This document shows positions 1 to 24,700 of a stretch of 64,000 bases of DNA, piece by piece. The translations under genes were made by a program, and so were the position numbers. The stretch covers positions 24,494,545 to 24,558,544 of the forward strand of contig NC_088790.1 of the NCBI RefSeq assembly GCF_949628265.1. Reading direction: 5' to 3'. The notes under the pieces were generated by a model. The model saw only the letters and a program-made list of their open reading frames with translations, had not been told where the DNA came from and searched no databases. Numbering within the stretch: the stretch's first letter is position 1; each line of letters opens with the position of its first letter. Source of the DNA: Cloeon dipterum (taxonomy: Eukaryota > Arthropoda > Insecta > Ephemeroptera > Baetidae).

Positions 1-3000
1 TCCAGCCGAGATTTTAATTTGTTGATGTCTGAGTCCTATTGAAATATAAAAAATAAATTAAAATGTGACCTGGAGTAGAAAGGTGGAAAATGGATTTTAT
101 ATCACCTGATTCTTCATCAGCTCTCCTACGACTTTCTGCAATTCATCCTTTTATAATAAAGAGAAAATTGAATTTAGCGGGAAAATAAGAAATAAATAAA
201 TCACCTGCTTATTTTCCAGGGTTCCGAACTCAGTTTGCAACGTGTTGATCTGGGAGTGAAGAAAAATAATGAAATATTTTTTTCAGCACTGACAATTGTA
301 ATATTACATTTGATTTGGTCGCTTCTCGGTCTGAATCCAACTGAGATTTTAAGTCCTTTATGTCTGATACAGATTTCACGCCCTGATGAATTAAAAAAAG
401 GATAATTTGGAGTTGAAAGATAGAAAATGGATACTATATAAAAATCACCTGATTTTTCAGCTCTCCTTCGAATTTCAGCAATGCAACCTTTCAAAATAAA
501 GAGAAAATTGAATTGGGTGAGAAAATAGGAAATAAATCGATCACCTTCAAATGATACTGATCATTTTCCAGGGATCCAAACACATTTCGCAACGTGGTTA
601 TCTGAGAGTGAAGGAAAATTTTAAATATTGATTTCAGCACTGATACTTGAAATGTTACTACATTTGAATTGGCCACTTCCCGGTCAGAGTCCTGCCGAGA
701 TTTTAATTGGTTGAGGTCTGAATTTGATTTTACGTCCTAATGAATTATATGAATTAAATGAAAATATGATCTGGAGTTGGAAGTTGGAAAATTTATTTTA
801 TCACCTGATTCCTCAGCTCATCTCTTACGAATTTCTGCAAGTCAGCATTTTGTAAAAAACAATTAAGAGAAAATTAGATTGGGCAGGAAAATAATAAATA
901 AATCGATCACCTTCAAATTATCCTGCTTATTATTTAGGGTTCCAAACTCATTTCGCAACATGGTGATCTGAGAGTGAAGAAAAAATTAATATAATGATTT
1001 CAGCATTGACAGTTAAAAAAATTTTACATTTGACATGGTCGCTTCCCAGTCAGAGTCCAGTTGAGATTTTAAGTGTTGGATGTCCGATGTAGATTTCGAG
1101 TCCTATTTAATCATATAAATAAATTAAATTAAAATACTTCGAGTTGAAAGTTGGAAAATGGATATTATCACCTGATTCTTTAGCTCTCCTGCGACTTTTT
1201 GCAATTCATCCTTTCAAAATGAAGTGAATATTAGATTTTGGAGGAAAATAAGAAATATATCAATCACCTTCAAATAAAACTGCTCATTGTCTAGGGCTCT
1301 AAAATCACTTTGCAACATATTGATCTGTGAGTGTAAAGATAAACTTGAAATATATTGATTTCAGAATTGACAAAGTATTTACGTTTGAGTTGGTCGCTTC
1401 TTGGTCTGAATCCAGCTGAGATTTTAATTTGTTGATCCTCGTTCTAATAAATTATATTTAAATATTATGGAGTTGAAATTCGAAAAATGGATGTTATCAC
1501 CTGATTCTTCAGCTCTCCTTTGACTTTTTGCAGTTCGTCCTTTCATAATAAAGAGAAAATTTAATATTACGGGAAAATAAGAAATAAATAAATCACACAC
1601 CTCTAAATAAGTCTGCTCAATTTTTAGGGTTCCTATCTCATTTTGCAACATTTTGATCTGTGAGAGTAAAGAAAAAATTGAAATTTTGTTTCTGAAATGA
1701 CACTAATATTACATTTGATTTGGTCGTTTTTCGGTCTGAGTCCAGCTGGTATTTTAATTTGTTCAGGTCTGATTTAGATGTCTCGTCCTTTTATAAATTA
1801 TATGAATTAAGTAAAATTTATGATTTATAGGGGTGAAATTTGGAAAATTGATAGAACATCACCTGCTTTTGAAGCTCTCCTACGACTTTCTGCAATTCAT
1901 CCTTTCATAATAGAGTGAAATTTGAATTTTTCGTGAAAATAAGAAATAAATTAATTACCTTAAAATCAGTTTGCTCATTTTTAAGGGTTCCAAACACAAT
2001 TTGCAACGCGGTGATCTGAGAGGGAAGAAAAAAATTTAAAACATTGATTTCTGAATTGACAAAATATTACACTTGAGTTGGTTGCTTCTCGGTCTGAATC
2101 CAGCTGGGATTTTAATTTTTTGATGTCTGATTTAGATATCACGTCCTATTAATGAATTAAATGAAAATATGGTCTGAAGTAGAAATGTGGAAATTGGATA
2201 TTATATCACCTGATACTTCAGCTCTCCTACGAATTTCGGTAATGCAGCCTTTCATAACAACGAGAAAATTGAATTTGTCGGGAAAATAGGAAATAAATCG
2301 ATTACCTTCAAATTATCCTGATCAATTTTCAAGGCTTCAAACTTATTTTGCAACGTAGTGATCTGAGAGTGAAGAAAAATTAATTTTAAAAACTGATTTC
2401 AGCATTGATAATTAAAATATTACATTTGAATTGGTCGCTTCCCAGTCAGAGTTCAGCTGAAATTTCAATTTGTCGAGGTCTAAAGTTGATTTTGCGTCCT
2501 GTTGAATATATAAATTAAATATAAATATTACTGGAGTTGAAAGTTGGAAAATGGAAAATGGATGTAATCACCTGATTTCTCAGCTCATCTTTTACGAATT
2601 TCTGCAAGCCAGCCTTTCGTAATATAGAGAAAATTTATTTGGGCGGTAGAAGAAGAAAAAATGAATCACCTTCAAATATTTTTGCTCATTTTGCAGGGTT
2701 CCAAACGCATTTCGCAACGTGGTAATCTGAGAGTGAAGAAAAAACTTGAAATATTTATTGGTTTCTGAATTGACAAAATATTACATTTGATTTGGTCGCT
2801 TTCCGGTCTGAATCCAGCTGAGATTTTAATTTGTTGATGTCTGAATTTGATTTTACGTCCTGATGAATTATATGAATTAAATAAAAATATTATTGGAGTT
2901 GAAAGTTGGAAAATGGATATTGTTACCTGTTTCTTTATCGTTTCTATGACTCTCTGCAATTCATCCTTTTATAATAAAGTGACAATTAAATTTAGCGGGA

Positions 3001-3340
3001 AATTTTGAAATTTGCCAATCACCTTGAAATAAGTCTGCTCATTTTTTAGGGATCCAAACTCATTTTGCAACATGTTGATCTGTGAGGATAAAGAAAAACT
3101 TAAAAAAATGTTAATATCTGAATTGACAAAATATTACATTTGATTTGGTTGCTTCTCGTTCCGAATTTCGTTGAGATATAATTTTGTTGATGTCTGGTTT
3201 CAATTTCACGAGCTAATAATTAATAATATGAAAATATAATCTGGAGTTAAAAGGTGGGAAATGGATATTATCACCTGATTATTCAGCTCTCCCAAGAATT
3301 TCTGGAATTCAGACTTTCATAATAAAAAGAAAACTGAATC
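1..3340 (-). repeat. Tandem array of about 355-bp three-exon coiled-coil modules
   Basis: A block related to 'tggtcgcttctcggtctgaa' recurs near 317, 671, 1036, 1390, 1720, 2078, 2431, 2791 and 3146, and a partial copy is cut by the window start. Spacing is 330-365 bp. Each unit holds, in minus-strand order, an exon of about 63-75 nt (DxN-LKSQLDSDRE type), one of about 45-57 nt (ITTLRNEFGTLEN type) and one of 39 nt (DELQKVVGELKNQ type), with introns of 50-120 bp. All exons are phase 0, so adding or losing a unit keeps the frame and changes rod length by about 53 residues. Confidence 0.85.
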
Positions 3341-4325
3341 TAGAATTGAATCTAGATATTTACAAATCCTACAAACCTTTGATATTAAAAGGACGAATTT
3401 TTCTGTGTGTTCCTGCACAAGTTTCTTTGTCTTCTGCATCACCTGATCCTTTTGAAATAAAAAATATACGAGTAAAAGATCGATACATTTTTATTTGATC
3501 TCACCTCCATACTAATCTGGCGGTTATTAATCAGCTCCATTTCGTGCCACAGAGTTTGGAACTAAATTTAAATGTTAATCTTAGATCGAAATGGAAAACA
3601 AAATACAAACATTTGATTCGGTGTTTTTCCGGTGAGTTTTCAGTTCTAAATTTAACTCCCAAATGGTAGGTTGATATTCAATCTACACAGAAAATGATAA
3701 TTTAACAAAAATCTAAAGGTTTTTTAAGAATAATAAATCACCAAAGGCGCCGGGAAGTTCTTCGCAGCTTGGCTTCTTGCCTCTCCATTGTACCTTGATT
3801 CGTAGTTTTTTTGTTGAGGCTTGAGCACGTCTTGACTGATCGAGATAATTTAGATATATGTTATTATAGGGAATGAAAGTGGTTTGTGCTAAAAGTCATG
3901 CTACTTTTTCCGAGAAAATGGAAATGAGCTGAGAGTTAATTACTCGAAAAGAATAGTAATATTGCAGATAAGCGTTAATAATTGCAGAATAGTCCCAAAG
4001 ATGAGAAAAAACATTAATTAATTATGGGTGAATTATATTTCTTGACTCTATCAGAATATTTTTAATTAGTTTATAATGTTGAAGAGAAAAACTTATTAAA
4101 CATATTGCGCTTTTTCGAGTGTAAAAAACAGACATCTCGAAGACATCAAAGGACACCATTGTGAATGTTCGGCAATATCGTACGTGCTTAATTATATGCT
4201 ACGTAATATGAACATTGAAATAATACTCACAGATCTGGGTAGTACGGCGGGTTATACTGGTTGTATTGAGCAGAGCAAGTCGCGAAGAACAAGCAGACGA
4301 GTATCAGAATAAAACGAGGAAGCAT
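1..4325 (-). CDS. Coiled-coil C-type lectin paralogue A (5' part; gene runs off the left edge)
   Basis: Secreted coiled-coil protein, paralogous to the two complete lectin genes to its right. The first exon (4231-4325) starts with ATG at 4323-4325 and encodes a clear signal peptide (MLPRFILILVCLFFATCSA, then QYNQYN). It ends in phase 2 at a GTGAGT donor and joins exon 2 (3742-3835), which completes the codon and stays open. Exons 3611-3682, 3505-3561 and 3377-3448 follow, all phase 0 and rich in heptad-like Leu, Ile and Lys. Below 3340 come repeated exons reading like DELQKVVGELKNQ, ITTLRNVFGSLENDQ and LKSQLDSDREATKSN. The lectin domain expected at the C-terminus would lie left of position 1, so it is inferred only from paralogues B and C. 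Splice sites in some inner repeats are degraded, so the exact exon set is uncertain. Confidence 0.8.
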
Positions 4326-4470: not shown

Positions 4471-4907
4471 CTATGCGTCCGTGTATGATTCATAGGGTTG
4501 TGCAAAACCGACTAGCGATTATATTTTATTTAGCCCTTATGGTGTTTGGACTATCAAATGAGTAAAAATAATCAATGTTTAAGTATTTCGATAGATTTTT
4601 AAAATGGATTTTATTTTTTATCATTTCATGCAAACCTACTGTTTTTTGATTATCTTAGTTCCATTTAAAACGCGATTATTATGACTATTTTTTTTAAATC
4701 GGTATGTCCTGTTATGTTATTGAATATTGGCGAAATCCATGAAGGCATAGCAGTGCTATTATAGCAGCAGTATTATGTTTTCCAAGTCAGTTTAACAGAG
4801 GGAATCTTGTAAAAAACGTGATACAAACAATAACTCAAGAAAAATAGATCAAATTTTAACATTGATTGTTCGTTGATTTTTCTTTTAACAGTTTTTTTTG
4901 TCATCTT

Positions 4908-5527
4908 TTTATCCCTGTCCTCGGACCAGGAAGGGCGCGCACTGCACTAGCACGAATGCTAAAACCCGGGTCCCAATAACACCGCGAACGGATAACATGG
5001 GCGCACCAGGCCGCACAGGGACCCAGCCCACTCAAGGGCCACTTGCCTCCGCACCGAGGACTGCATTGAAACGCTAGACATTCGTACCGTGATGCCAAAT
5101 CACGCATGCTGGAAAGGTGCAAACCATATATAGGAGCAGATTTTCACAAAAAATGTAAACGGCAAACAGGAAATATTTAAGCTCATAATTTGCAAACCAT
5201 TGGATAAATTTGGACTAAAGTGATCGAAATCCAGATAAAATCCTTGACAGATATCGTTTAATTTTTAGAGCAATTTGGCAAAATAAGAAATTTAACTGTT
5301 TTTTGGTCCTGCGATTTCATTATTTCACATCGTAAAGGTTATAACTAACTGTTGCTAAATTCCACAAACAGTTAACTCGATGAACCACTTGCTAAAGCCA
5401 ACCATACAAAATGTTGGATTGTATTCCATGTTATCCGTTCGCGGTGTTATTGGGACCCGGGTTTCAGCATTCGTGCTAGTGCAGTGCGCGCCCTTCCCGG
5501 TCCTCCGGTCCTCGGACAGGGATAAAA
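4908..5527. repeat. Inverted repeat with arms of about 92 bp around a 430-bp centre
   Basis: The reverse complement of 4908-4999 matches 5428-5527 almost base for base. Both arms contain 'gttattgggacccgggttt' and 'gtgcagtgcgcgccctt', with the outer end at 'cctgtcc'. The arms are GC-rich within AT-rich DNA. The centre shows no coding capacity. This looks like a non-autonomous element with terminal inverted repeats, but I see no clear target-site duplication. Confidence 0.6.
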
Positions 5528-6266
5528 AGAGCAAAAAAAAAGCTCTTAACTTCCAATCTCTCTCTCTGCAGGAGCCACCTTTCCCCCTACACCTGAGTCT
5601 AACTCTCGACCCCTATTGCGCTAGCGAGCGGGGATATAGATCATCAGGGAAGAGCACAGAACTCAATCAGTGATTTTGACTTCCCACTGCGACTTTGTTT
5701 AAATTTTTAAGTGTGTCTATACTTAAACCGAACACTTATCAAACATTCCACAAAAGATTATTTCTATGAAAAATCAGATAAAAATGGTTTTTGCAAAAAA
5801 ATGACATTCTTAACCTGCAATCGATTTTTTTAAATGCCAAAAATAAAGAACAATGTTGTAACATAACACCGATTAGATACTTGCTTTTAGGAACCAATTT
5901 TAAAACATATTATTAGCTACTCGATTGCTGATTATAATAATCGATTATTTATTTGACCAATTGATGTATCATGATTCATGTTACAAGACAACGTAATTAA
6001 TTAGAAAAAAACGCAAGCGTCACATCCTTTGAATGTATAGTATTACTGAGTCATACCACCGCTCTTGTCAACTGCAAGCCATTTTCCCATATTTTTTAAT
6101 ACGGATGCCACACTGATACAATGAAAATACGGACATAATTATGTATCCTTTGTCGCAACACTCGATTCCTCTGCTTCTCAGCCTGAGAACTGAGATGAGA
6201 GAAAGCCCCCCGCGTTATGCAAACCCTCCAACTTGACCCTCCCCAAACTAATTACTTGTTCGCGTC

Positions 6267-6269
<3 letters not shown>

Positions 6270-6357
<88 letters not shown>
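6270..6357. repeat. (CT)n microsatellite
   Basis: Uninterrupted CT dinucleotides over about 88 bp. It produces artificial Ser-Leu and Arg-Glu open frames. The equivalent tract between genes B and C is shorter. Confidence 0.97.
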
Positions 6358-7421: not shown

Positions 7422-10400
7422 TTATTGCATCTCGCAAATGATATAGGCAAAGTGGGTGCATTTATCCTTGTACAATTTAACTTCATGAATTTTCCTGATA
7501 TAACCGCAGAATGCAGAACCCTTTCCGTCGTCGTCTGGTAACCTTTCCTTTCCCCACAAGGTACTGTTGAGCACCTCTCCATCCAGCCACTGATATTCGA
7601 CGCCTTTGTTTGCCGCATCAGACGCAGAAAGCCAAAAAGCATCATCTGACAACAACAGATTTATAAAAACAATATAGTGCTTTTTTACTTCAAATTTACC
7701 TGGCTCCAGCTCCGTCAGTTTTTTATGCAAAAGACTGATTTCTTCCTGAGTTTTCGGACTAGCAAGACGCATTCCTTTCTCCTCGCAGATCGTCTTCGCC
7801 ATGTCCCATGTATACTACGCAAAATGATTTTAGAATTTTCTAAATTGTTCATTTATATCCAAAGTTTATACTTTTTGCAACGAAAAATGATACGTTTTTC
7901 CATTTGCCAGCGTAGACACGACCCATCCTGAAAGATTAATGAAAATAAAATTTCCCTTCTCAGTTAAAATAATTTGCAACTCACGCTTTTGCTTGCATAG
8001 CTCCACCACCTAAGAAAAATAAAAATACAAACATTTATTTTCAATCAAGACAGCAGGTAATAGGAAAGCTTATTTTTTTATATTTTTTACGATTCCGTAA
8101 AACGATTTTTACCTTTGCATTCAATTGCTGCAGCTGGTTCCTAAACTGTTGCTTTGCGTCGCTAACTTCACTCTGAAATCAAAATAAAACTATTTAAATA
8201 TAAAAACTGCAGAAAAACTCACCTTTAAGGTGGCCTGGTCGTTTATCAGTGTTTTTATTGCGATTCGTGTCCCATCAATCTGCCGTAAAAATTGCTCAAA
8301 TAAATTTAGATTTCCGTCGAATTTGTTATACCTTTGAAGTCAAACTATTTTGGTTAGCCTCTAAACGGTTTTCCGACTCACGAATGTCCCTTCTACAAGA
8401 TGAGTCCTGAAAAATCAAAATTTCAAAATATTAGGTGAAGTTGAAAAAGGTGTGAAATGGATATTATCACCTGATTCATCAGGTCTCCTACGAATTTCTG
8501 CAGATCATCCTTTCAAAATAGAGAGCAAATTGAATTTCGCTGGAAAATCGGAATTAAATCGATCTCACCTTCAAATTATCCTGCTCATTTTTCATGGTTC
8601 CAAATTCATTTCGCAACGCGGTGATCTGAAAGTGAAGAAAAAATTCTAAACATTTGATTTCAGCACTGATAATTAAAATATAACGTTTGAATATGTCGCT
8701 TCCCAGTCAGAGTCCAGCCGAGATTTTAATTTGTTGATGTCTGAGTCCTATTGAAATATAAAAAATAAATTAAAATGTGACCTGGAGTAGAAAGGTGGAA
8801 AATGGATTTTATATCACCTGATTCTTCAGCTCTCCTACGACTTTCTGCAATTCATCCTTTTATAATAAAGAGAAAATTGAATTTAGCGGGAAAATAAGAA
8901 ATAAATAAATCACCTGCTTATTTTCCAGGGTTCCGAACTCAGTTTGCAACGTGGTGATCTGGAGTGAAGAATAAAATTGAAATATTTTTTTCAGCACTGG
9001 CAATTGTAATATTACTTTTGATTTGGTCGCTTCTCGGTCTGAATCCAGCTGAGATTTTAATTCCTTTGTGTTTGAATTAGATTTTACGTCCTAATGAATT
9101 ATATGAAAATATGATCTGGAGTTGAAAGTTGGAAAATTTATTTTATCACCTGATTCCTCAGCTCATCTCTTACGAATTTCTGCAAATCAGCATTTTGTAA
9201 TAAATATTGGGCGGGAAAATAAGAAATAAATCGATCACCTTTAAATTATCCTGCTTATTATTTAGGGTTCCAAACTCATTTTGCAACATTTTGATCTGTG
9301 AGAGTAAAGAAAAAATTGAAATTTTGTGTTCAGGACTAACAGTTAAAATATTACATTTGATTTGGTCGCTTCCCGGTCCGAATCCAGCTGAGATTTTAAT
9401 TTGTAGATGTTTGAATTGGATTTCTCGTCCTAATGAATTAAATTAACAAAACGGAATTCAAATTTGAAAAATGGATATTATCACCTGATTGTTCAGCTCT
9501 CCGACGACTTTCTGCAGTTCAGCCTTTCATGATAAAAAGAAAATTGAATTTTATATTGAATATTTTCAAATGTCTACAAACCTTTGTTACTAAATAGTTG
9601 ACTTTTGCTGTGAGTTCCTGCACAAGTTGCATTGTCCCCCTCAATTCATTCTTTTAAAAGCAAAAATATGAGTAAAATACTGATAAATGTGTTTCTTTGA
9701 TTTCACCTCCACGCTTGTCTGACGATTACGAATTAACTCCATATTATCATGCCCTACTTCTTGGAGCTAAATTTAAATGTTTATCTTACAATTAGATCGG
9801 AAAGGAAAACATAATACAAACTCTTGTTTTGGTGCATTCATGGAGTTTGTCCAGAGAATCATTCAACTGTCCAATGGTAAGTTCATGCAACAAAGAAAAT
9901 GTTATTTTTTTAACAAATCTAAAGGGTTTATTAAATATAATAACTTACCCAAACATGCGGGTAATTTGCCGGTGCATGGTTCACCGTCCCTCCATAGCAC
10001 CTGGATTTACAAATTTTTTGTAGAAGCTTGAATGAGGACGTTTCGACTGATCGAGATAATTCTGATTGTACATATGATATTAAGGTATGAAAGTGTTTTC
10101 TGCTAAAATTCATGCTACTTTTCGGAAAAAAAAATGGAAATGAGTTGAAAGATAATTTACTCTAAAAAGAGTAATATTGCAGATAAGAGTTAATTGTCGA
10201 ATAGTTCCAAAGATGACAAAAAATAACATAATAATCAATTAGGGGTGAATTCAACATCGTGTTTCTATCTGGATATTTTGAAGCATTTTATAACTTCATA
10301 ATGTTGAGTTGAAACAAATTGCGCTTTTTCGAGTTAAATTAACAGAGATATCTCGAAAACAACGAAGCACACCATTGTTAATTTTTAGGCAATATTATAC

Positions 10401-11551: not shown

Positions 11552-11605
<54 letters not shown>

Positions 11606-12180
11606 CTCTCTCACAACCTCCTTGGGCCTCCAGTGCCACGTTTCTTTTAATAAGACCATCGTTTATCTCTCATGTACGTATTTTCCTCAACATAAATTAG
11701 TTCGTCGAATTCTGGCTTTATCATCAGTTCTTTTAGCTCGCTTGCGTAAATAAACCACGGGGGTCAAGATGGAAAGAGATGTCGACCTTTCATATAAATG
11801 ATTATTGAACAAGAAAGATTACGTGTCTCCCTGGCTTCTGCTTATTCTGCTTGGTCCAAACGGCGCGACGTTTGGCAGCCGCCGGCGTGCTTGCAATCAG
11901 AATGTTAGCTCGCTTTGTGTTGCACCAGCAGCAATCAAAGCGTTTCTTCTTGGCCTTTGGCTCAATCTTCAGCTCTTTTGTGCCTCCAGTCGTAGAATGA
12001 ATATCGCAGAACTTTCTCCCTCGTATATATTTCAAATTAACAATCAATGAGAATAGCACTACAAAGATCAAAATAAATTTGACGTAAAGATTAAAATATA
12101 CTGCTTTTTACTCTAGGAAAATATATGATCTTGAGTTGAGAGTGAAAAAGTTCAGGCTTTTTTCTAAAATAATGTCTGTT
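10682..12180. other. Intergenic region upstream of lectin B
   Basis: No gene supported. The left part resembles the DNA upstream of lectin A (4471 onward) but lacks the GC-rich inverted repeat found there at 4908-5527, so that element either inserted after the duplication or was lost here. It contains a CT tract at 11553-11612. Confidence 0.6.
11553..11612. repeat. (CT)n microsatellite
   Basis: CT dinucleotides over about 60 bp with one GCT interruption, in the position equivalent to the longer tract at 6270-6357. Confidence 0.95.
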
Positions 12181-12600
12181 AGGTAGCAGCTTTATTAAAT
12201 TCACGAGTGCAACAATCAGCGAGTGAACGTGTTTGCATATCAAGTGGCATTTCCACTATACTCTCAATTGAATTTCATCTCACTCTATGTGCACGCCGGG
12301 CGTCAAGAAGGAGCTCAATAAATTTCCATTCTGACTCAGCTCCACTGAGATACAAGATGCTGCAACCTTAATTGAATTTTTGCTGTGTTTCTCGGGATTA
12401 TTCAAAATTATTGCTCGACCAGAAAATGTTATTTTGATCTTCACTCCTTCACTGATGACCAAGAAGATTGGTAAAAACGGGATACGTTTATACAATTTAC
12501 TTAAAATTAATGTTTTAAAATAAACAGACTGCATTGCCCAAGATGAAATTGTTGGTTGGAGACTCCAGAAGCATCTTCACTAATGTGGTAAAATAATTAT
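12181..12600 (+). pseudogene. Broken copy of the sulfatase gene 5' end (upstream region, exons 1 and 2)
   Basis: This segment aligns with 15900-16330, the start of the intact sulfatase gene: 'gtttgcatatcaagtggcat' occurs in both, and the exon-2 text 'aaacagactgc-ttgccca' is shared. The ATG at 12357-12359 is followed by CTG CAA CCT TAA, a stop at codon 5 where the intact gene reads TTA. Further indels disrupt the frame around the TDDQD motif, and no later exons follow. It is a truncated, dead duplicate that travelled with a lectin duplication. Confidence 0.85.
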
Positions 12601-12966
12601 CTCTAATTTCATGTCGGAAATTCAAATGATCTACCGAAACGAAAAAAACTTTTTCTTGTTTTATCGCAGGAAATACATATGCTATTGGCACTGCTGCCCT
12701 ATTGACACGCATTTGATTCCAAACACCAATCTGCATCGCATTTGAATATCCCATTTTTTTTCTTACCACCCTCGAGACTCGAGACAAAACGTCGTGCTAT
12801 TCCCCTGACGCTGTTTCAATAACTTTAATGAGCATAACCCCCATAGATACGGTCAGCTCGAACTAGGTTGCCTGCGCACGAAGAAAATAAACACTATAAG
12901 AGTTTTCTCAGGGTAGAATCAGTTTATATGTTGAAGTTTTTCAAATAAATTCAGTGAATAATAAAA
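12601..12966. other. Spacer between sulfatase fragment and lectin C
   Basis: No gene seen. It includes a block with 'cactgctgccctattgaca' shared with 7150-7170 and a nearly identical stretch shared with 7290-7370, so it is the duplicated 3' flank of the lectin genes. Confidence 0.6.
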
Positions 12967-15495
12967 TTATTGCATCTCGCAAATGAAATTGGTAAAGTCG
13001 GTGCATTTTTCCTTGTACAATTTATCTTCAAGCACTTTCCTGATGAAAACACAGGATGCAGAGCCCCTTCCGACGTCGTCTGCTAACCTTTCCTTTTCCC
13101 ACAAGGAACTGTTGAGCGGCAGCACCTCTCCGTCCAGCCACTGATATTCTACGCCTTTGTTTGCCGCATCAGACGCAGAAAGCCAAAAACCAGATTCTAA
13201 CAACAGGTTTATTATAAAAAATAGCGTGGTTTTTTACTTCAAATTTACCTGGCTCCAGCTCTGTCAGTTTCTGATGCAAAAGACTGATTTCTTCCTGAGT
13301 TTTCGGACTAGCAAGACGCATTCCTTTCTCCTCGCAGATTTTCTTCGCCATGTCCCATGTATTCTACGCAAAATGATTTTAGAATTTACTGAATTGTTCA
13401 TTTATATCCAAAGTTTATACTTTTTGCAACGAAAAATGATACGTTTTTCCATTTTCCAGCGTAAACACGGCCCACCCTGAAGGATCAATGAGATTAAATT
13501 TTCCCTTCTTTCAAAATAATATGCAACTCACGTTTTTGCTTCATTAACTCCAGCAACTAAGAAAAACAAAAATACAAACATTTTTTCAACCAAGACAGAA
13601 GGTAAGAGGAAAGCTAAATCTTTTATTTTTACGTATTCGTTAACGATTTTTACCTTTGCATTCAATTGCTGGAGCTGGTTCCTAAACTGTTGCTTTGCGT
13701 CGCTAACTTCACCCTAAATTCGAAATAAAAATATTTTAAAATAGACAAACTACAGAAAATTTCACCTTTAATGTGTCCTGCTCGTTTTTTAGTGTTTTTA
13801 TTGCGATTCGTGTCCCATCAATCTGCCGTAAAAATTGCTCAAATAAATTTAGATTTAATTCGTCGAATTTGTTATACCTTTGAAGTCAAACTATTTTGGT
13901 TAGCCAGCAATCGGTTTGCCAACTCACGAATACGGCTATTAGTAGGTGAGTTCTGAAATCAAAATTTCAAAATATGATCTGAAGTTGAGAGGTGGAAAAT
14001 TGATATTATCACCGGATGCGTCAGCTCTCTTTCGAATTTCTCCAAGTCGTCCTTTCAACAAAGAGAACATTGAATTTGGAAGGAAATTGGAAATATTTTA
14101 TCTCACCTTCAAATTAGTCTGCTCTTTTTTCAGGGTTCCAAACTCATTTCGCAACAAGTGGATCTGAGGGTGATGAAAATTTTTAAATATATTTGATATA
14201 TATAAGCACTGACAAAATATTGAATATGATTTGATCGCTTCCCGGACTGAGCCCAGCTGAGATTTTAATTCTTTGATGTCAGATTTAGATTTCCCGTCCT
14301 TAAGAAATATACATTCTGTAAGAAATTCAAAGCACATTTACAAATGGCTACAAACCTCTGTTATTGAAAGGTTGACTTTTGCTGCAAGCTCCTGCACAAG
14401 TTGCTTTGTCCCTCTCAACTCATTCTATTGAGAGCAAAAATATGAGTAAAATATTGGTAAATTTGTTTCTTGACCTCACCTTTATACTGATCCCAGATTT
14501 ATAAACCATCTCCAAATTTTTCCGTACTTCTCGGAACTAAATTAAAATTTTAGTTTTATATTCAAAAAGAAAACATAAAAACTACATTTGAGTTGGTGTT
14601 TTTCCGGTCTTCATCCAGTTGAGATGTTAACTTTTGAATGGTAGATTCAAGCTAAGCAGGAAAAAATATTATTTTGTAACAAGTCTAAAGGTTCTTGAAT
14701 AAAATTACTTCCGAAGGTGATTCCAAGTTCAAGCCCGTCCGTACAAATTTTTTCGTTGAAGCTTGAATGAGGGAGGACGTTTCGAGTGAACGAGATATAT
14801 TCAGATATGTTATTAGGGTATGAAAGAGGTAGCTGCTAAAACGGAAATGAGCTGAAAGTTACTCTATAGGATTGTCAGATTAAAGACAAGCGTTGTCGAA
14901 TAGTCCAAAGGATGAAAAAAAAATTAGAGATGGAAGGGTATTCCAAACTTCTTGATTCTATCAGGATATTTTTAAAGACAGAGATAACTTGAAAACAAAC
15001 AACGGACGCACCAACGTAAATTTTTCTAGGCTTTATTTACGTGCCTAATTAGGCTTCATTTTCCCTATACTATAATAATCCAGCAAATAATATTCTATTT
15101 TTTTGAATTTTTTTTCCAAAAATGTATAATTACAGAAATTCAGAATTTTTAACGATTCAGGTGTCAACATATTTTTTTTGCATAATAATCACCTGGTCAA
15201 AATGGTTTATCTCCACTATAGGAGTCAATATTTAAAAAATGTTTTCTAAAATTCAGTTTTTGCGGAAAATTTAGTTTACAATTTAATTACATACCCTAAA
15301 ATCATATCTGACAATCACGATTTGGCCATTTCAAGTAACATTATTTAAAACAATAATTCATTATTGTGTTTAAACGTGGGAAGGCCCAGATAGGATATAA
15401 GAAGTATAAAATAACACTCACCCATATTTATTGTATTGAGCAGAGGAAGTCGCGAAGAACACGCAGACAAGTAATAGAACCGAACGAGAAAGCAT
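12967..15495 (-). CDS. Coiled-coil C-type lectin paralogue C (complete)
   Basis: Shortest of the three tandem lectins. ATG is at 15493-15495 (exon 15422-15495, signal peptide MLSRSVLLLVCVFFATSSA). Coiled-coil exons are recognisable at about 14590-14665 (LESTIQKLTSQLDEDRKN), 14472-14530 (FREVRKNLEMVYKSG), 14356-14424, 14240-14298, 14107-14163, 14013-14051, 13878-13952, 13766-13822, 13654-13713 and 13532-13556. The lectin domain is encoded by 13421-13476, 13249-13363 and 12967-13196, with the stop at 12967. It has only one copy of the repeated coiled-coil module. The four lectin cysteines are kept; EPN/QPD and WND are absent, as in B. The exon-2 acceptor found in A and B is changed from CAG to CAC here, and one donor (near 14240) is missing, so the start of the protein is less certain than its end. 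Confidence 0.8.
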
Positions 15496-15630: not shown

Positions 15631-16082
15631 ATTCCTGTGTAAATGGAGAAATAAAACCACCAGCGCCACATCCTTTGAACATTATTTCGTTAAATGTCAG
15701 CATTATCACGGTTTCTTTTGGCTTGCTTAAAATTAAAATTAAATTTGACAAATAGTACAAAATAAATTCTGCTTTTTATTCTAGGAAAACGTCATGGTAG
15801 CGGAAAATATGGTCATTCGCATATTTATTTAGCACATGAAATTTAGTTGAGTAAGAAAAATTCAGGTTATATGATTTTTAAAATTTGATGTCAGTATGTA
15901 GCAACTTTATTAAATTCATGAGCGCAACAATCGGCGAGTGAACGTGTTTGCATATCAAGTGGCATTTCCACGTCACGCAACTCTCAATTGAATTTTATCG
16001 CGCCACTCTGTATACACGCCGGGAGTCAACAAGGAGCTGATGGATAAATTTCCATTCCGACTCAGCTCCTCTGCGTGACAAG
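15631..16082. other. Divergent spacer between lectin C and the sulfatase gene
   Basis: About 450 bp separating two divergent genes, so it probably holds the sulfatase promoter and 5' UTR. The part from 15900 is the parent of the broken copy at 12181-12600. I see no TATA box or TCAGT initiator for the sulfatase. Confidence 0.5.
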
Positions 16083-18890
16083 ATGCTGCAACCTTTATTG
16101 ATTTCTTTGCTGTTTGTCTCGGGATTCATCCAAATTTTTGCTCGACCAGAAAATATAATTTTGATCCTCACCGATGACCAAGATTTGGTGAAAACGGGAT
16201 ACGTATACACAATTTACTTTAAGTTTTGACTCAAAATTAATTTTTTCAAATAAACAGACTGCTTTGCCCAAGACGAAATTGTTGCTGGGAGATTCCGGAA
16301 GCACCTTCACCAATGCGGTAAAATAATTATCTTAAATTTAATGTGTTTTTTTTAAATTTTAATTTCAGTTTGCAACGACGCCAGTGTGTTGTCCAAGCCG
16401 TTCTTCCATTCTGACAGGCCGCTATTTGCACAATCACAGAGTGTTGAACAACTCTATTTCCGGAGGATGCGCCAGCGATAAGTGGAGAGAAGACTTTGAA
16501 AACAACGCAACGTTCGCGACGCACCTCAAGAAGCAGGGGTACAAAACGTTTTACGCAGGCAAATATTTAAATCAGGTAAAACACAATTTTTCAATGGAGG
16601 AATGTGATAACATGCGACAAGGAATATTTATTGTGACATAAATGAAAATCTGTTGCAAGCTTGGAGACAAGGAATTTTCCTAATGCAACAGTTTTTTTTA
16701 ATAAAAATTTCATAAATAAAAATATAATTTTTATAGCGTGTTTTTGATTAAACGCAAATATGAAGTTGATTAGAATTGTAGACTCTTTTAGGACCAATTA
16801 AAAATAAAATTTCAGAATTTGTCAAAATTAAACTCTTTTTGTCAATGATTTTTCACTTGATTTAAATTCCTCTAGTCGTGATCTATCCAACGGTGAACGA
16901 ATTTTGAGGAAAATTTCACCAAATTGTTTAACAAATCGTGATTTTTAATAAGGAGATATTGCTCGCCGCTTGATTAGCACGCAAACATCAATCACACTTT
17001 CTCGCAAAATTTAACGGCAGCCTGGGAAAAAATAAGGCTCTCTCCAAATTGTTTAAGATAATAAATATAAGGTAAAAAGGTCTTAACATCCACTTTAAAT
17101 TACATTTTTTATTTAAGATTTTTTAAATTAATATTTAAAAATAACTTTTAGTACGGCAAGAAAAATGCTGATGTGCCGAAAGGGTGGGACTGGTGGTTCG
17201 GCCTGCAGGGAAACTCTCGCTACCAGAATTACACGCTCTCCGAAAACGGCACCTGGCGCAGTTACGGCGATCGTCCTGAGGACTACCTGACTGATGTCAT
17301 TGCCGAGCGAGCGCTCGAGTTCCTGAACCAGGGCCAACTGCAAAACACACCCTTCCTGATGGTACTCGCCACCCCTGCGGCGCACGACCCTTTCACCCCT
17401 GCCGAAAAATACAAAGGGCGCTTTGCTAGGAGCCAATTGCCGAAAGGAGCCGATTTCAACGCTTTTAATCAGGTGCAAAAATGATTAATTTTGTTGAGTT
17501 TTTTTTCCATTAATAACGAAACAAAACAAATTCTAAAAATTTAATTTACAATGTTTTCGTGTATAAAGTAAAATTGATCATATTTCTATAAATTGAAATT
17601 TTCAGTCAAAAACTTTACCAAAATTTGAGCTTATAATTTAAATAATTTTGTAAATATTAAAATCAAGAATTTTAATCAAGTTTTATGTAGATTTTAATAA
17701 GTTCGAATATTGCAGGGAAAGCATTGGCTAGTGCAAATGCCTCCGCTCACCTTGTCAAACGAGACTATCTCGAAAATTGAAGAGATTTACAGGCACAGAT
17801 TGGAAACCCTGCTCTCAGTGGACGATCTCGTGGAGCAGATTGTCTCGAAATTGGAGCAGTTGCAGCTTTTGGAAAGGACCAATTTGGTGTTCACCTCAGA
17901 CCATGGATACCACTTGGGTGCAGTTTAATTTAGTTTATTTAAATCCTCAAAAATTTGTATTTTAAATAATATAAAAGATTTGATTTTTGTAAGGCGATTT
18001 TTTGCTGCAAATTAATTTGAGTTTTATCTGCGTCCATGAATAATAATTCACTTTTATTTATATTAATTTTTTCTAATATATATATGTGCTTAATGACGCA
18101 ATTTCACGGGCCAGAGGACAAAATTGGCACGATTTTAGAATTTTTTTGATCTTGTTTTAGGCCAGTTTGCGATGCCGTGGGACAAACGCCAGCCGTACGA
18201 CTTCGACATTCGAGTTCCATTTTTGATCCGCGGCCCTCGCATCCCCAAGAAGAAGACTTTTGAGCAGCCCATTCTGCTGACTGACCTGGCGCCGACCTTT
18301 TTGCAAATCGCCGGAATCGAGGATGACAGTGGCATGGACGGAATTTCCTTATTTAAATCGATCGAGTTGGAAAAGATGAACAGGTCGTTTCTCATTGAAT
18401 TCAACGGCGAGTCGCACGAGGATTCTGTTTCTCCAGACTGCCCTGAGGAATTCCGAGAAAAAGGGCAGTTCTTTGTAGGATTTGCAGTATTGATATATGC
18501 TTTTCGATTTTATTTCATGCTATTTTTAAGGAGTGCAATCTGGATAACGCCTGCAAATGCCAGGACGTGCGGAATAACACTTACGCTTGCGTCCGGCACA
18601 TTTCAAACAAATGCAGTTTTATTTTCTGTCACTTTGATGATGATGAGGTTTTAATTTTCAGGCTAAATATAGTATTTTATTTTTGATTTAAAAATGTTTT
18701 CCAGGACTTTGAGGAGTTTTATGATCTGAATTCGGACGCCCTTCAGTTGAGAAACGTCGCTGATAATCTTCAACCGCATTTTCTGCAGTTTTATCGGAAG
18801 TCTCTTAAGAAATTGCAGTTGTGTTCAGGGAAGGAATGCAAAGAGAGCGGATGGAAGAAAGTCTTGTGTCCTGACTTCGGAACAGATTAA
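16083..18890 (+). CDS. Gns: N-acetylglucosamine-6-sulfatase (lysosomal, heparan/keratan sulfate degradation)
   Basis: Removes the 6-sulfate from N-acetylglucosamine during glycosaminoglycan breakdown. Eight phase-consistent exons: 16083-16187, 16258-16317, 16369-16575, 17152-17472, 17716-17917, 18161-18474, 18531-18647 and 18705-18890, giving 503 aa (human GNS is somewhat over 550). A hydrophobic signal peptide comes first, then the metal-binding LILTDDQD motif near residue 32. Next is the sulfatase signature CCPSRSSILTG, whose first cysteine is the residue converted to formylglycine. FTSDHGYHLG supplies further metal and catalytic residues, and the family's C-terminal CKC-NNTYACVR segment is present. 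AATAAA follows 57 bp after the stop. The gene is intact, unlike the truncated copy at 12181-12600. Confidence 0.95.
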
Positions 18891-21720: not shown

Positions 21721-24700
21721 ATGTTAATATCGGATGCTCTGTTTTTCTCCCTTGTTTATGCCACAGTGATCGCAGATCCTGTAAGTAAAAAAATATTTTC
21801 TATTTATTGCAAAACTAGTTGTATTTTTCTCTATAGTTAAATATCTTTTCTACGCGGTAGATTTTTATTTAATCCTCAAAATTGAATGTTTTTGGGAGCA
21901 ACCAGCAAGAGGAAGTCGATTATTTGAAAGTTTTCTCTCAAATGTTTCTGCGAATTAATTAATGAATTTAATTCTTTTGAACGGACTTATTGTTAAATGT
22001 TGAATTGTTTCGACACTCTTTGTCTCTGGTGTGCTTTAAAAAAATTCTTCCTTTCCTCTAATGTTTTCCTTAAAGGTCTCAAAAGAGCACCAAATTCCCA
22101 GAATTGAAAATATTCAACCACCCTTAAAACTGTATTTCCTCGCCTAAAAAATTAAATCTCTAGATTTTCTCAAAAGGAGACAACGACAAAAACTTAGTTT
22201 AAATTTTAGAAGAAAAATCATTTTTTGGCCCGCCTATTCTTAAAGATATTATTGTAAATATATTTTACAGATCATGATGTTTTTTTCTTAAAAGGGGAAG
22301 AAGTAATTCTAAATGAAAATTCTGCATATATTTAAGAAACCAATATTGAATTATTTTAAATTTAAATCGGTCTGAACAACCTAGAAATAATTGTATTAGC
22401 CTACATAAATTAATTATCTCATAATTTTTTTTAAATAATAAATTCTCCAGATTGTCTACCGGGGCGAGCAACAGTCGCAAAAGCCGCCGAAGCGATTTGA
22501 GCTGGCCAGAAACTGGCAGCAGTCGTCTGAAATTCAGCAGATTCCCCAGCAGTCCGAATACGACTACCAGCAACCCCTCGTGGTGGTGCATTCGTACAAA
22601 AAGCCCAGCCAGTACCAGTACTACTACGAAGGGCCGACCCTGCAGAATGTGCTCGAGCCACCAGTGCAACAGCCCGAAAGGCCGAGATCCAAGAGCAGCG
22701 TCATCCAGCAGATCAATGCATTCTGTCTCGAGGAAAACGGCCAGTTTCCGTTTCCGCAGGACTGCAGAAAATTCGTCAATTGCTGGAAGGTAAAAATTAA
22801 AAAGACTTATTGGCATATTGCGCAACAACAAAAATTAATTTGAATTGTTCACCTCAATTATCAGTTGATAAAATTGTGGGGAAAAGTTTAGTACTTGACA
22901 AATTTAAAGGAATATTTTATGTTAAGTTAAAATCCAGTTTTCACAAATTTTCAGTACAACTCAACTTCTTTCAATTTAAAATATCTTATTTGCTATTCGC
23001 ACAAAAAATTGTTTTTAAAATATTTTGAATCTTTAGGGTCGAGGAACGGTTCAGGTGTGTGCTGCTGGAACCTTATTCGATCCAGAAATGCGAATCTGCA
23101 ATCACGCCAATCGGGTGAGCTGTACAGACACAGACGTGGAGCAACCGCAGATTTTTCACGGCTTCGTCAGGGCAGGAGGTCGCCGCCTCGAAGAGCAGCA
23201 CGAATTCTCGGAATTCGACGAAGATAACACAGGACAACAGGTAATAAATAATTGCTTTTTTTAAATTATTTTTTTTATCAAAACTGTTGGGAATAAAGAG
23301 GATTTATTGCATCCTCTGATTTAATTTGCCTCTAATATTTAAAATAGTTATAAATTAAAAAAAAATACTCAGAGGCAAAGAAAACATCGTCTTGGTATAA
23401 AAAGGGAAAATTCAAACTTATTTCCGTATAATGATGTTTCCCCCATTTTAATTTAATTTAATTTTTCGTAAGATGGTTTGTAAATTCTTATTTGGTGCAT
23501 GAACTTTGCTACAAACTTGATGCGCTGAAATCACAAATCCTTTTTTGGTTATTTTGTGACTGCAAAAATTCAATTTTTAATCATAATTTCAATTTAGGGG
23601 TAGCTATCCTGTTTTAATTTAATATAAAAGCAAATTGAAAAATATAACTATAGTTTCCCAATTGTCTCGGAGCACTAGCTGCTTTGCATTTCCATTTTAA
23701 TTTTGATTTACAAAGAAAACTACATCCATAAATTTTATTTAGAATAGAAGATCTCACCCTTGGTAAATTTCGATGAAAATTTTCGTTCCTTTTTTTTTAT
23801 TTCAAATCCAAATTAACACGACCTTTTTAAATTTTCCCTCATGAAAATTCAAAATATACGTTTTCGCTAAGTTAATTTCTGGTTATAGGTTGGGCTGGAG
23901 CAGAACTACAACCGGGAGTGCGAGTACCCTGACAGGCCATGCCCGATTCCGCAGCCGCCGAGCCAGCAGGAGCCGCAGGCCCTGAGCTGCCCTGAGCCGT
24001 CGGGGATGTGGCGCCACCCTTACGACTGCACCAAGTTCATCCAGTGCGCACACAACCGCCTCTTCGAAATGCCGTGCGGCCCTGGCACGCTTTTCAACCC
24101 TCTGCACATGGTCTGCGACTGGCCCCAAAACGTCGATTGCCAGGTCGGCGGCGGCGAGTTGGTCCCTGAGCAAAGCCAGACGGCCGGACATATCGAAGAT
24201 AGGATTGCGGTGGAAGGGCAGGAGTCGCAATACTTTGGTCCGCCGATCGCCTCAACCCCAACAACCACGACGACGACAACCACTACAACAACGACAACCA
24301 CGACGAAACGTCCAACCACCACGCAGAGGAAATACCAAACCATGTCCAGGTCCATTTTGGCATATATATTTTTTTAAGGCAACACAACACCTCCATCATT
24401 TTTTTTTTAATAATTCACCAGTTGCATAAACTCGTAGTGTTCGAAACCGCCAAAAGATGGCGCCACCGTATACTTTCGTAATAAATTTAATTTTAAGACA
24501 CTTCCGCTGCGATTTCAGACTCAATCCTGCCACTGTGCGTTCTTCGCTTAATATGCTTTCTTTTGACGTTCTGAAACCCAAAATCGGTCCAGCCATTCGC
24601 CGTAGGAACGTTGGGAAAGATTTTTTTTTTAAAAAATAGCTTTTCGCGATTCTACTGCGATTGGCTTAACCGATTTTGGTTTTCAGAACGTCAAAAGAAA

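Follow-up and report, generated by a model that had tools for sequence, protein, structure and literature searches.

We analysed a 64-kb window of genomic DNA (contig C5:24494545-24558544). Coordinates below are positions in this window, with negative numbers lying to its left; a further 10 kb on that side was taken in as locus L008, in which a position equals the window position plus 10000. Near the left window end, the minus strand carries three tandem paralogues, A, B and C, whose exons were curated by hand. Judged from their sequence, all three genes consist of a signal-like first exon, a predicted coiled-coil stalk and a C-type-lectin-like domain. The features are as follows.

4325 to -1295, minus strand: gene A, from its ATG to the end of its stop codon (in L008), hand-built exon model
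4231..4325, minus strand: gene A exon 1, with a hydrophobic, signal-peptide-like start (MLPRFILILVCLFFATCSA), by inspection
3377..3682, minus strand: gene A stalk exons b0, c0 and a0, which probably represent unit 0 in diverged form
1..3313, minus strand: gene A module array (lone a1 at 3313-3275, units 1-9 from 3212 to 36), from TRF, exons and the unit alignment
1383..1443, minus strand: exon b6 of unit A6, 61 nt long, out of frame after losing 14 nt
805..846, minus strand: exon a of unit A7, with its acceptor lost (AAAT for AAAG)
35 to -305, minus strand: gene A unit 10, starting inside the window with the rest in L008
7422..10537, minus strand: gene B, hand-built model of 22 exons and 516 aa, complete reading frame
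8407..9523, minus strand: gene B array (a1 9523-9485, B1 9429-9091, B2 9090-8748, B3 8747-8407)
7422..7927, minus strand: gene B C-type-lectin-like domain, exons L1-L3, by likeness to the gene A domain
12967..15495, minus strand: gene C, hand-built model of 15 exons and 393 aa, counting a donor-less b exon
13953..14298, minus strand: gene C single unit (b 14298-14224, donor lost; c 14163-14107; a 14051-14013)
17155-18480, plus strand: sulfatase-domain gene adjoining gene C (PF00884 and PF16347 SGSH_C, from Pfam)

With exon b6 skipped, the gene A model has 42 exons and encodes 882 aa with a single terminal stop. The gene runs ~1.3 kb past the left window edge, with unit 10 lying partly and the lectin domain wholly outside. 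For gene C, leaving out the b exon gives an alternative reading of 14 exons and 368 aa. Read in the direction of transcription, the modelled stalk consists of b0, c0 and a0, followed in A and B by a1 on its own, then the repeated b, c and a exons and b11, c11, S1 and S2; the head exons L1-L3 come last. The acceptor of the N-terminal exon E2 differs among the three genes, and E2 is uncertain. Since exon ends were picked by hand with an open frame in mind and the E2 acceptor varies, open frames there are partly by construction. A hydrophobic start was seen by eye in A, B and C, and their proteins are probably secreted.

Several other elements surround these genes. Between A and B, at 4885-5549, are inverted repeats that begin ~560 bp upstream of the gene A ATG (78-nt arms, 97% complementary and 425 nt apart, with outer 43-nt arms at 84%); by impression, this stretch looks like a small, MITE-like DNA transposon. 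CT runs are found at 6271-6357 (43.5 copies), ~1.9 kb upstream of the gene A ATG, and at 11554-11612 (29.5 copies), 1.0 kb upstream of the gene B ATG. The 5' stretch of the sulfatase gene is present twice, at 12125-12614 and 15836-16344 (80% identity), and the former copy, which stands apart from the gene, may be a remnant left when tandem duplication produced B and C. Of three neighbouring stretches scanned against Pfam, the two sulfatase stretches matched and 22452-22790 gave no match.

Tandem Repeats Finder (TRF) reported two arrays: 54-3339, with a period of 353, 9.3 copies, 71% matches and a score of 2378, and 8446-9543, with a period of 339 and 3.3 copies. Counting exon b, exon c and exon a as one unit, a single alignment gave 10, 3 and 1 copies in A, B and C, each of 339-366 bp, so the 10 : 3 : 1 ratio proposed in the initial annotation holds exactly. 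The usual exons measure 75 nt (b), 57 nt (c) and 39 nt (a), encoding 25, 19 and 13 residues, and the unit introns span 47-75 nt. The proposed three-exon, phase-0 unit of about 355 bp was also borne out, except at b6: the other 41 of the 42 unit exons each span a whole number of codons and have an open phase-0 frame. Its suggested size of about 53 residues applies to A10, B2 and B3, whereas the commonest size is 57, seen in 6 of the 13 units without a frameshift (A1, A3, A4, A5, A8 and C1). Unit A9 has 54 residues, and A2, A7 and B1 have 58, the last two coming to 54 if an internal acceptor is used. Twelve nucleotides are missing from exon b of A10 and B3 and from exon c of A9 and B2, and, b6 aside, unit exons differ in length by multiples of 3 throughout.

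Splice signals are largely intact, with 41 of the 42 unit introns starting with GT and 40 of the 42 ending with AG. The exception at the donor side is the b exon of gene C. For exon a of A7, an in-frame AG 12 nt inside yields a 30-nt exon (834-805); in B1, the usual acceptor of exon a is lost as well, and an AG 12 nt inside preserves the frame. Including b6 introduces 39 stops into gene A and leaving it out restores a frame with the terminal stop only. As it is out of frame, b6 must be skipped for gene A to keep its frame.

We then considered whether the modules are coding. With b6 set aside and exon a of A7 and B1 taken in its 42-nt form, the 41 unit exons hold no in-frame stops, whereas the two alternative frames contain 71 and 59. 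When each of these exons was shuffled, the stops averaged 53 and never fell below 34 (1000 trials). We also simulated drift without selection from a 57-codon consensus, applying the observed divergence of each of the 14 units; this produced a mean of 17.1 stops with uniform composition and 23.1 with intron-like composition, values that are slightly overstated as the simulation counts full-length units and includes b6. None of the 500 trials in either setting was free of stops. A chance repeat or non-coding debris is ruled out by the stop-codon and simulation tests. Stops in the inner modules had been named beforehand as the sign of such debris; there are none in 41 of the 42 exons, and the frameshifted b6 can be skipped in frame.

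Constraint on the encoded residues is less evident. Pooled over the A units, pN/pS is 0.70, and exon identity (0.773) is barely higher than intron identity (0.757); by these sequence comparisons, amino-acid selection on the modules is weak. Between A and B, stalk exons b11, c11 and S1 show dN of 0.121 against dS of 0.109, and S2 plus the head shows dN of 0.025 against dS of 0.011, on 9 changes only. No excess of silent changes was found in A-B divergence, either in the head or in b11, c11 and S1. Between the heads of A and C, dN is 0.102 and dS 0.160. The b6 frameshift, the donor loss in C and the two lost exon a acceptors make slow decay of the array possible.

The exons flanking the array had been described as single copy, which is partly right: of 11 tested against the b or c profiles, 9 exceed shuffled controls. 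We used a full shuffle and a stricter shuffle that keeps the hydrophobic pattern. Exons b11 and c11 stand out in all three genes (p 0.0006 or less with the full shuffle, 0.0002-0.022 with the hydrophobic pattern kept). For b0, none of 5000 full shuffles, the one control applied, scored as high in any of the three genes (19 residues each; in gene B, four of the 19 fall outside the exon as later modelled). Exon c0 of gene A reaches p 0.0006 with the full shuffle but fails the stricter control (p 0.063), and c0 of gene B, its 20 residues cut to 19 and compared ungapped, fails both controls (p 0.36). At the DNA level, a unit profile found unit 0 in C (E 6e-9) and A (2e-4), with B not among the matches listed, and unit 11 in C (6e-4), B (0.0012) and A (0.013). 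It therefore seems that the majority of the flanking exons compared go back to the exon types found in the units.

The heptad-like coiled coil proposed for the stalk is supported by its periodicity. Over the 549 stalk residues of A, hydrophobicity is most strongly periodic at 3.5 (z 10.5) and 3.6 (z 10.7), against z 4.4 at 3.667, as expected of a hydrophobic core spaced at 3-4 residues along a coiled coil, and the proline fraction is 0.004. We read the 57-residue unit as probably seven heptads plus two 4-residue stutters (two successive 4-4 steps); 57/16 = 3.56 matches the observed periods of 3.5 and 3.6. Eleven core columns are hydrophobic in 146 of 149 cells compared with 74 of 612 elsewhere, a contrast that is partly by construction since the columns were chosen after viewing the alignment. 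Amino-acid identity among the A units, a contrast less affected by the choice of columns, is 0.75 in the core and 0.54 outside it. A Pfam scan of the modules, considering the best 25 of 36 families, gave a marginal hit of four gene A modules to DUF892 (PF05974; 23.9 bits, cut-off 23.7), in our view a match of composition, with the remaining 24 under their cut-offs. If each stalk formed one continuous helix, the rods of A, B and C would be ~102, 45 and 29 nm long.

The assignment as a lectin stands for the fold and is doubtful for the activity. The gene A head matches PF00059 (Lectin_C) over profile positions 2-107 of 107 (E 1.3e-13, 52 bits, cut-off 22.6), and 58 PDB sequences matched this domain at E up to 0.001. 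Sugar-binding C-type lectins carry canonical calcium and sugar ligand motifs, EPN or QPD, and WND. In one pairwise alignment to the sugar-binding collectin CL-P1 (2ox9), the canonical ligands are mostly missing from the gene A head, which reads LPD at the place of QPD and LYK at that of WND; gene C reads LAD at the QPD place by inspection. As these ligands are mostly missing, ordinary calcium-dependent sugar binding is doubtful. The gene B head with S2 is 94.2% identical to that of gene A over 139 residues. Between these stretches (-1295 to -708 and 7422-8009), 8 changes alter an amino acid and 1 is silent, too few to test, hinting at a possible fast change of the head domain between A and B.

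Relatives were sought across the genome, whose 190 Mb are spread over 10 contigs, with five measuring 33-43 Mb. The lectin domain gave at least 59 matches. Among those listed, the top-scoring paralogue outside the cluster lies on contig C3, with 50 and 58% identity in two pieces. On reading, it shows a signal-like start and a head together with two short exons that are candidates for a stalk, and no array; the last 19 residues of its 21-aa exon do not resemble exon c (p 0.50). Searched with the 57-aa module at E up to 1, the genome gave 18 matches, all 18 within genes A and B. The unit of gene C was itself not recovered by this query, so other diverged arrays could likewise have escaped it. 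We also screened six 10-kb stretches near lectin relatives (L057, L058 on both strands, and L060-L063, leaving out L059) under strict splice-score limits and found no array, and at most a few short coiled-coil-like, phase-0 candidate exons in each. The same limits applied to gene A caught mainly c and missed most a and b exons, so single stalk exons were possibly overlooked.

For the origin of the 10:3:1 series, we compared whole units including introns. Within A, these are 70-82% identical, and no A-A pair exceeds 82%. Similarity is unrelated to separation along the array (Spearman 0.01, permutation p 0.50), with no neighbour effect. A young array is ruled out by the unit identities and the absent distance effect. 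Closer relationships run between the genes: A9/B2 (96%), A10/B3 (98%) and A7/B1 (86%) have bootstrap values of 99-100 and are the sole starred groups in the unit tree, in which A1-A6 and A8 are without a B partner. A7 and B1 also have in common the lost acceptor of exon a. The margin between A7/B1 at 86% and the closest A-A pair at 82% is small. Unit B1 is mosaic-like, with a start like A2 or A9, a middle like A5 and an end mostly like A7, and the unit of gene C is at most 77% identical to any A or B unit.

Judged by identity, divergence among the A units preceded that within the A/B pairs, which makes the array old. As three A units are paired with B in an old array, we read the contrast between the two genes as a loss of units from B. 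The simplest history is a many-unit ancestor, and it is more likely that B lost units than that A gained them. Identity between A and B is uneven, at 90% upstream of the ATG, 81% in the first long intron stretch and 74% over b0-a0 in the 5' part, and 96 and 98% in the last two units, 91% over b11-S2 and 97% in the head in the 3' part. This suggests a later A-B exchange over the 3' part, which may mask an older split and distort the pair identities.

Taken together, we consider this locus most likely (probability roughly 0.72) to comprise three tandem paralogues, each bearing a lectin-like head on a coiled-coil stalk built from old, phase-0, three-exon units. The repeating element of the stalk would be a ~350-bp unit in which three phase-0 exons alternate with three short introns. 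As unit exon boundaries fall between codons, stalk length can change without touching the head, in support of the proposal that unit gain or loss preserves the frame; such changes would come about when units recombine unequally or when a damaged exon is skipped. The 10:3 contrast would have arisen by loss of interior units in B followed by A-B exchange over the 3' parts. Rod length would in turn set the spacing or valency of the head domains; secretion, oligomerisation and the functional weight of length are what we infer for these proteins.

Three other accounts were weighed against this one. The initial annotation likened the array to a minisatellite, that is, an active coding array whose unit number is still changing often, differs between individuals and tunes rod length. 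Its tandem layout, phase-0 units and unequal counts among paralogues fit, and the mosaic B1 is a trace of recombination inside the array. However, a hypervariable coding minisatellite is expected to contain near-identical recent units, and in this one assembly the best A-A pair reaches 82%, with no distance effect and no young duplicate unit; together with the A-B unit pairs, this makes minisatellite behaviour improbable, and that part of the annotation was set aside. We give a marginally better, still low chance to a decaying array in which most inner modules are skipped relics and the 3' modules and head alone are used. Such decay would account for the b6 frameshift, the acceptors lost in A7 and B1, the donor lost in C, the pN/pS of 0.70 and the near-equal identity of exons and introns, but it sits poorly with the absence of stops from 41 exons, for which neutral drift predicts about 17-23, with a hydrophobic core retained across units and with exon length differences that, b6 apart, come in multiples of 3.

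Somewhat less improbable, and compatible with the old-array reading, is a rod selected by splicing, in which symmetric exons are alternatively included to give several rod lengths. All 41 intact unit exons are divisible by 3, and the lesions in A b6 and C b1 need skipping or another splice site, although the exons of any phase-0 array should be skippable in frame and the argument draws on genomic sequence. As a tentative extension, rod length might be set both by gain and loss of units in the DNA and by in-frame skipping in the RNA, with splice or frame lesions being absorbed. Coiled coils naturally shift register by 3 or 4 residues, which is why the 4-residue changes seen here (exon b of A10/B3, exon c of A9/B2 and the acceptor shift of A7/B1) would be tolerated.

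The old-array reading can be set beside three known systems. CD23, the low-affinity IgE receptor, is likewise a C-type lectin whose coiled-coil stalk is encoded by repeated short exons. It is a membrane protein with few copies of a 21-aa repeat, one exon each, whereas the unit described here has three exons, occurs in 10, 3 and 1 copies and belongs to probably secreted proteins.

CLEC4M (DC-SIGNR/L-SIGN) and CD209 also place a C-type lectin head on a helical neck of tandem repeats, described as 23-aa (69-bp) units numbering 4-9 in human alleles (PMC2971551, PMC3261175, PMC5275740). For CLEC4M, work on the repeat region used a PCR fragment from exon 4 (PMC3261175) and the neck units form 8 haplotypes (PMC2971551), while CLEC4M/DC-SIGNR necks are reported to be helical bundles with the helices kinked at a proline in most units (PMC2971551; PMC5275740). 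By contrast with these descriptions, the unit here spans three exons with introns, is usually 57 aa, is almost proline-free and is 70-82% alike in A, so the marks of a DC-SIGNR-type VNTR neck (one-exon repeats, a 23-aa unit and a helix-breaking proline) are absent. The human proteins project from the membrane, whereas A, B and C look secreted.

The third system is the Rlecs of the prawn Macrobrachium nipponense, invertebrate multigene C-type lectins with a variable number (1-9) of tandem coding repeats before the lectin domain (PMC7536079). These repeats, of 30/33 bp, are reported to lie inside exon 2 and are ascribed to slip mispairing; in one type, a higher repeat number is reported to increase function in immunity, and an EPN motif is given for one Rlec (PMC7536079). 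The word 'coiled' is absent from the main text of that paper. The present genes differ in their unit of three exons with introns, and no EPN motif was seen here. Among the matches listed, open-access titles and abstract openings named no lectin with a multi-exon repeat unit, which is weak evidence of absence.

By analogy with CLEC4M and the Rlecs, the stalks of A, B and C could serve a neck-like function; having a unit of three exons with introns, they are built differently from either neck. Variable-length lectin necks are already known, with the CLEC4M and Rlec repeats described as sitting inside one exon. With a three-exon unit that includes introns, recombination of the DNA could instead alter rod length, as in principle could splicing. 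Rods of 10, 3 and 1 units, with the heads of A and B nearly the same, offer a natural series for testing the effect of rod length.
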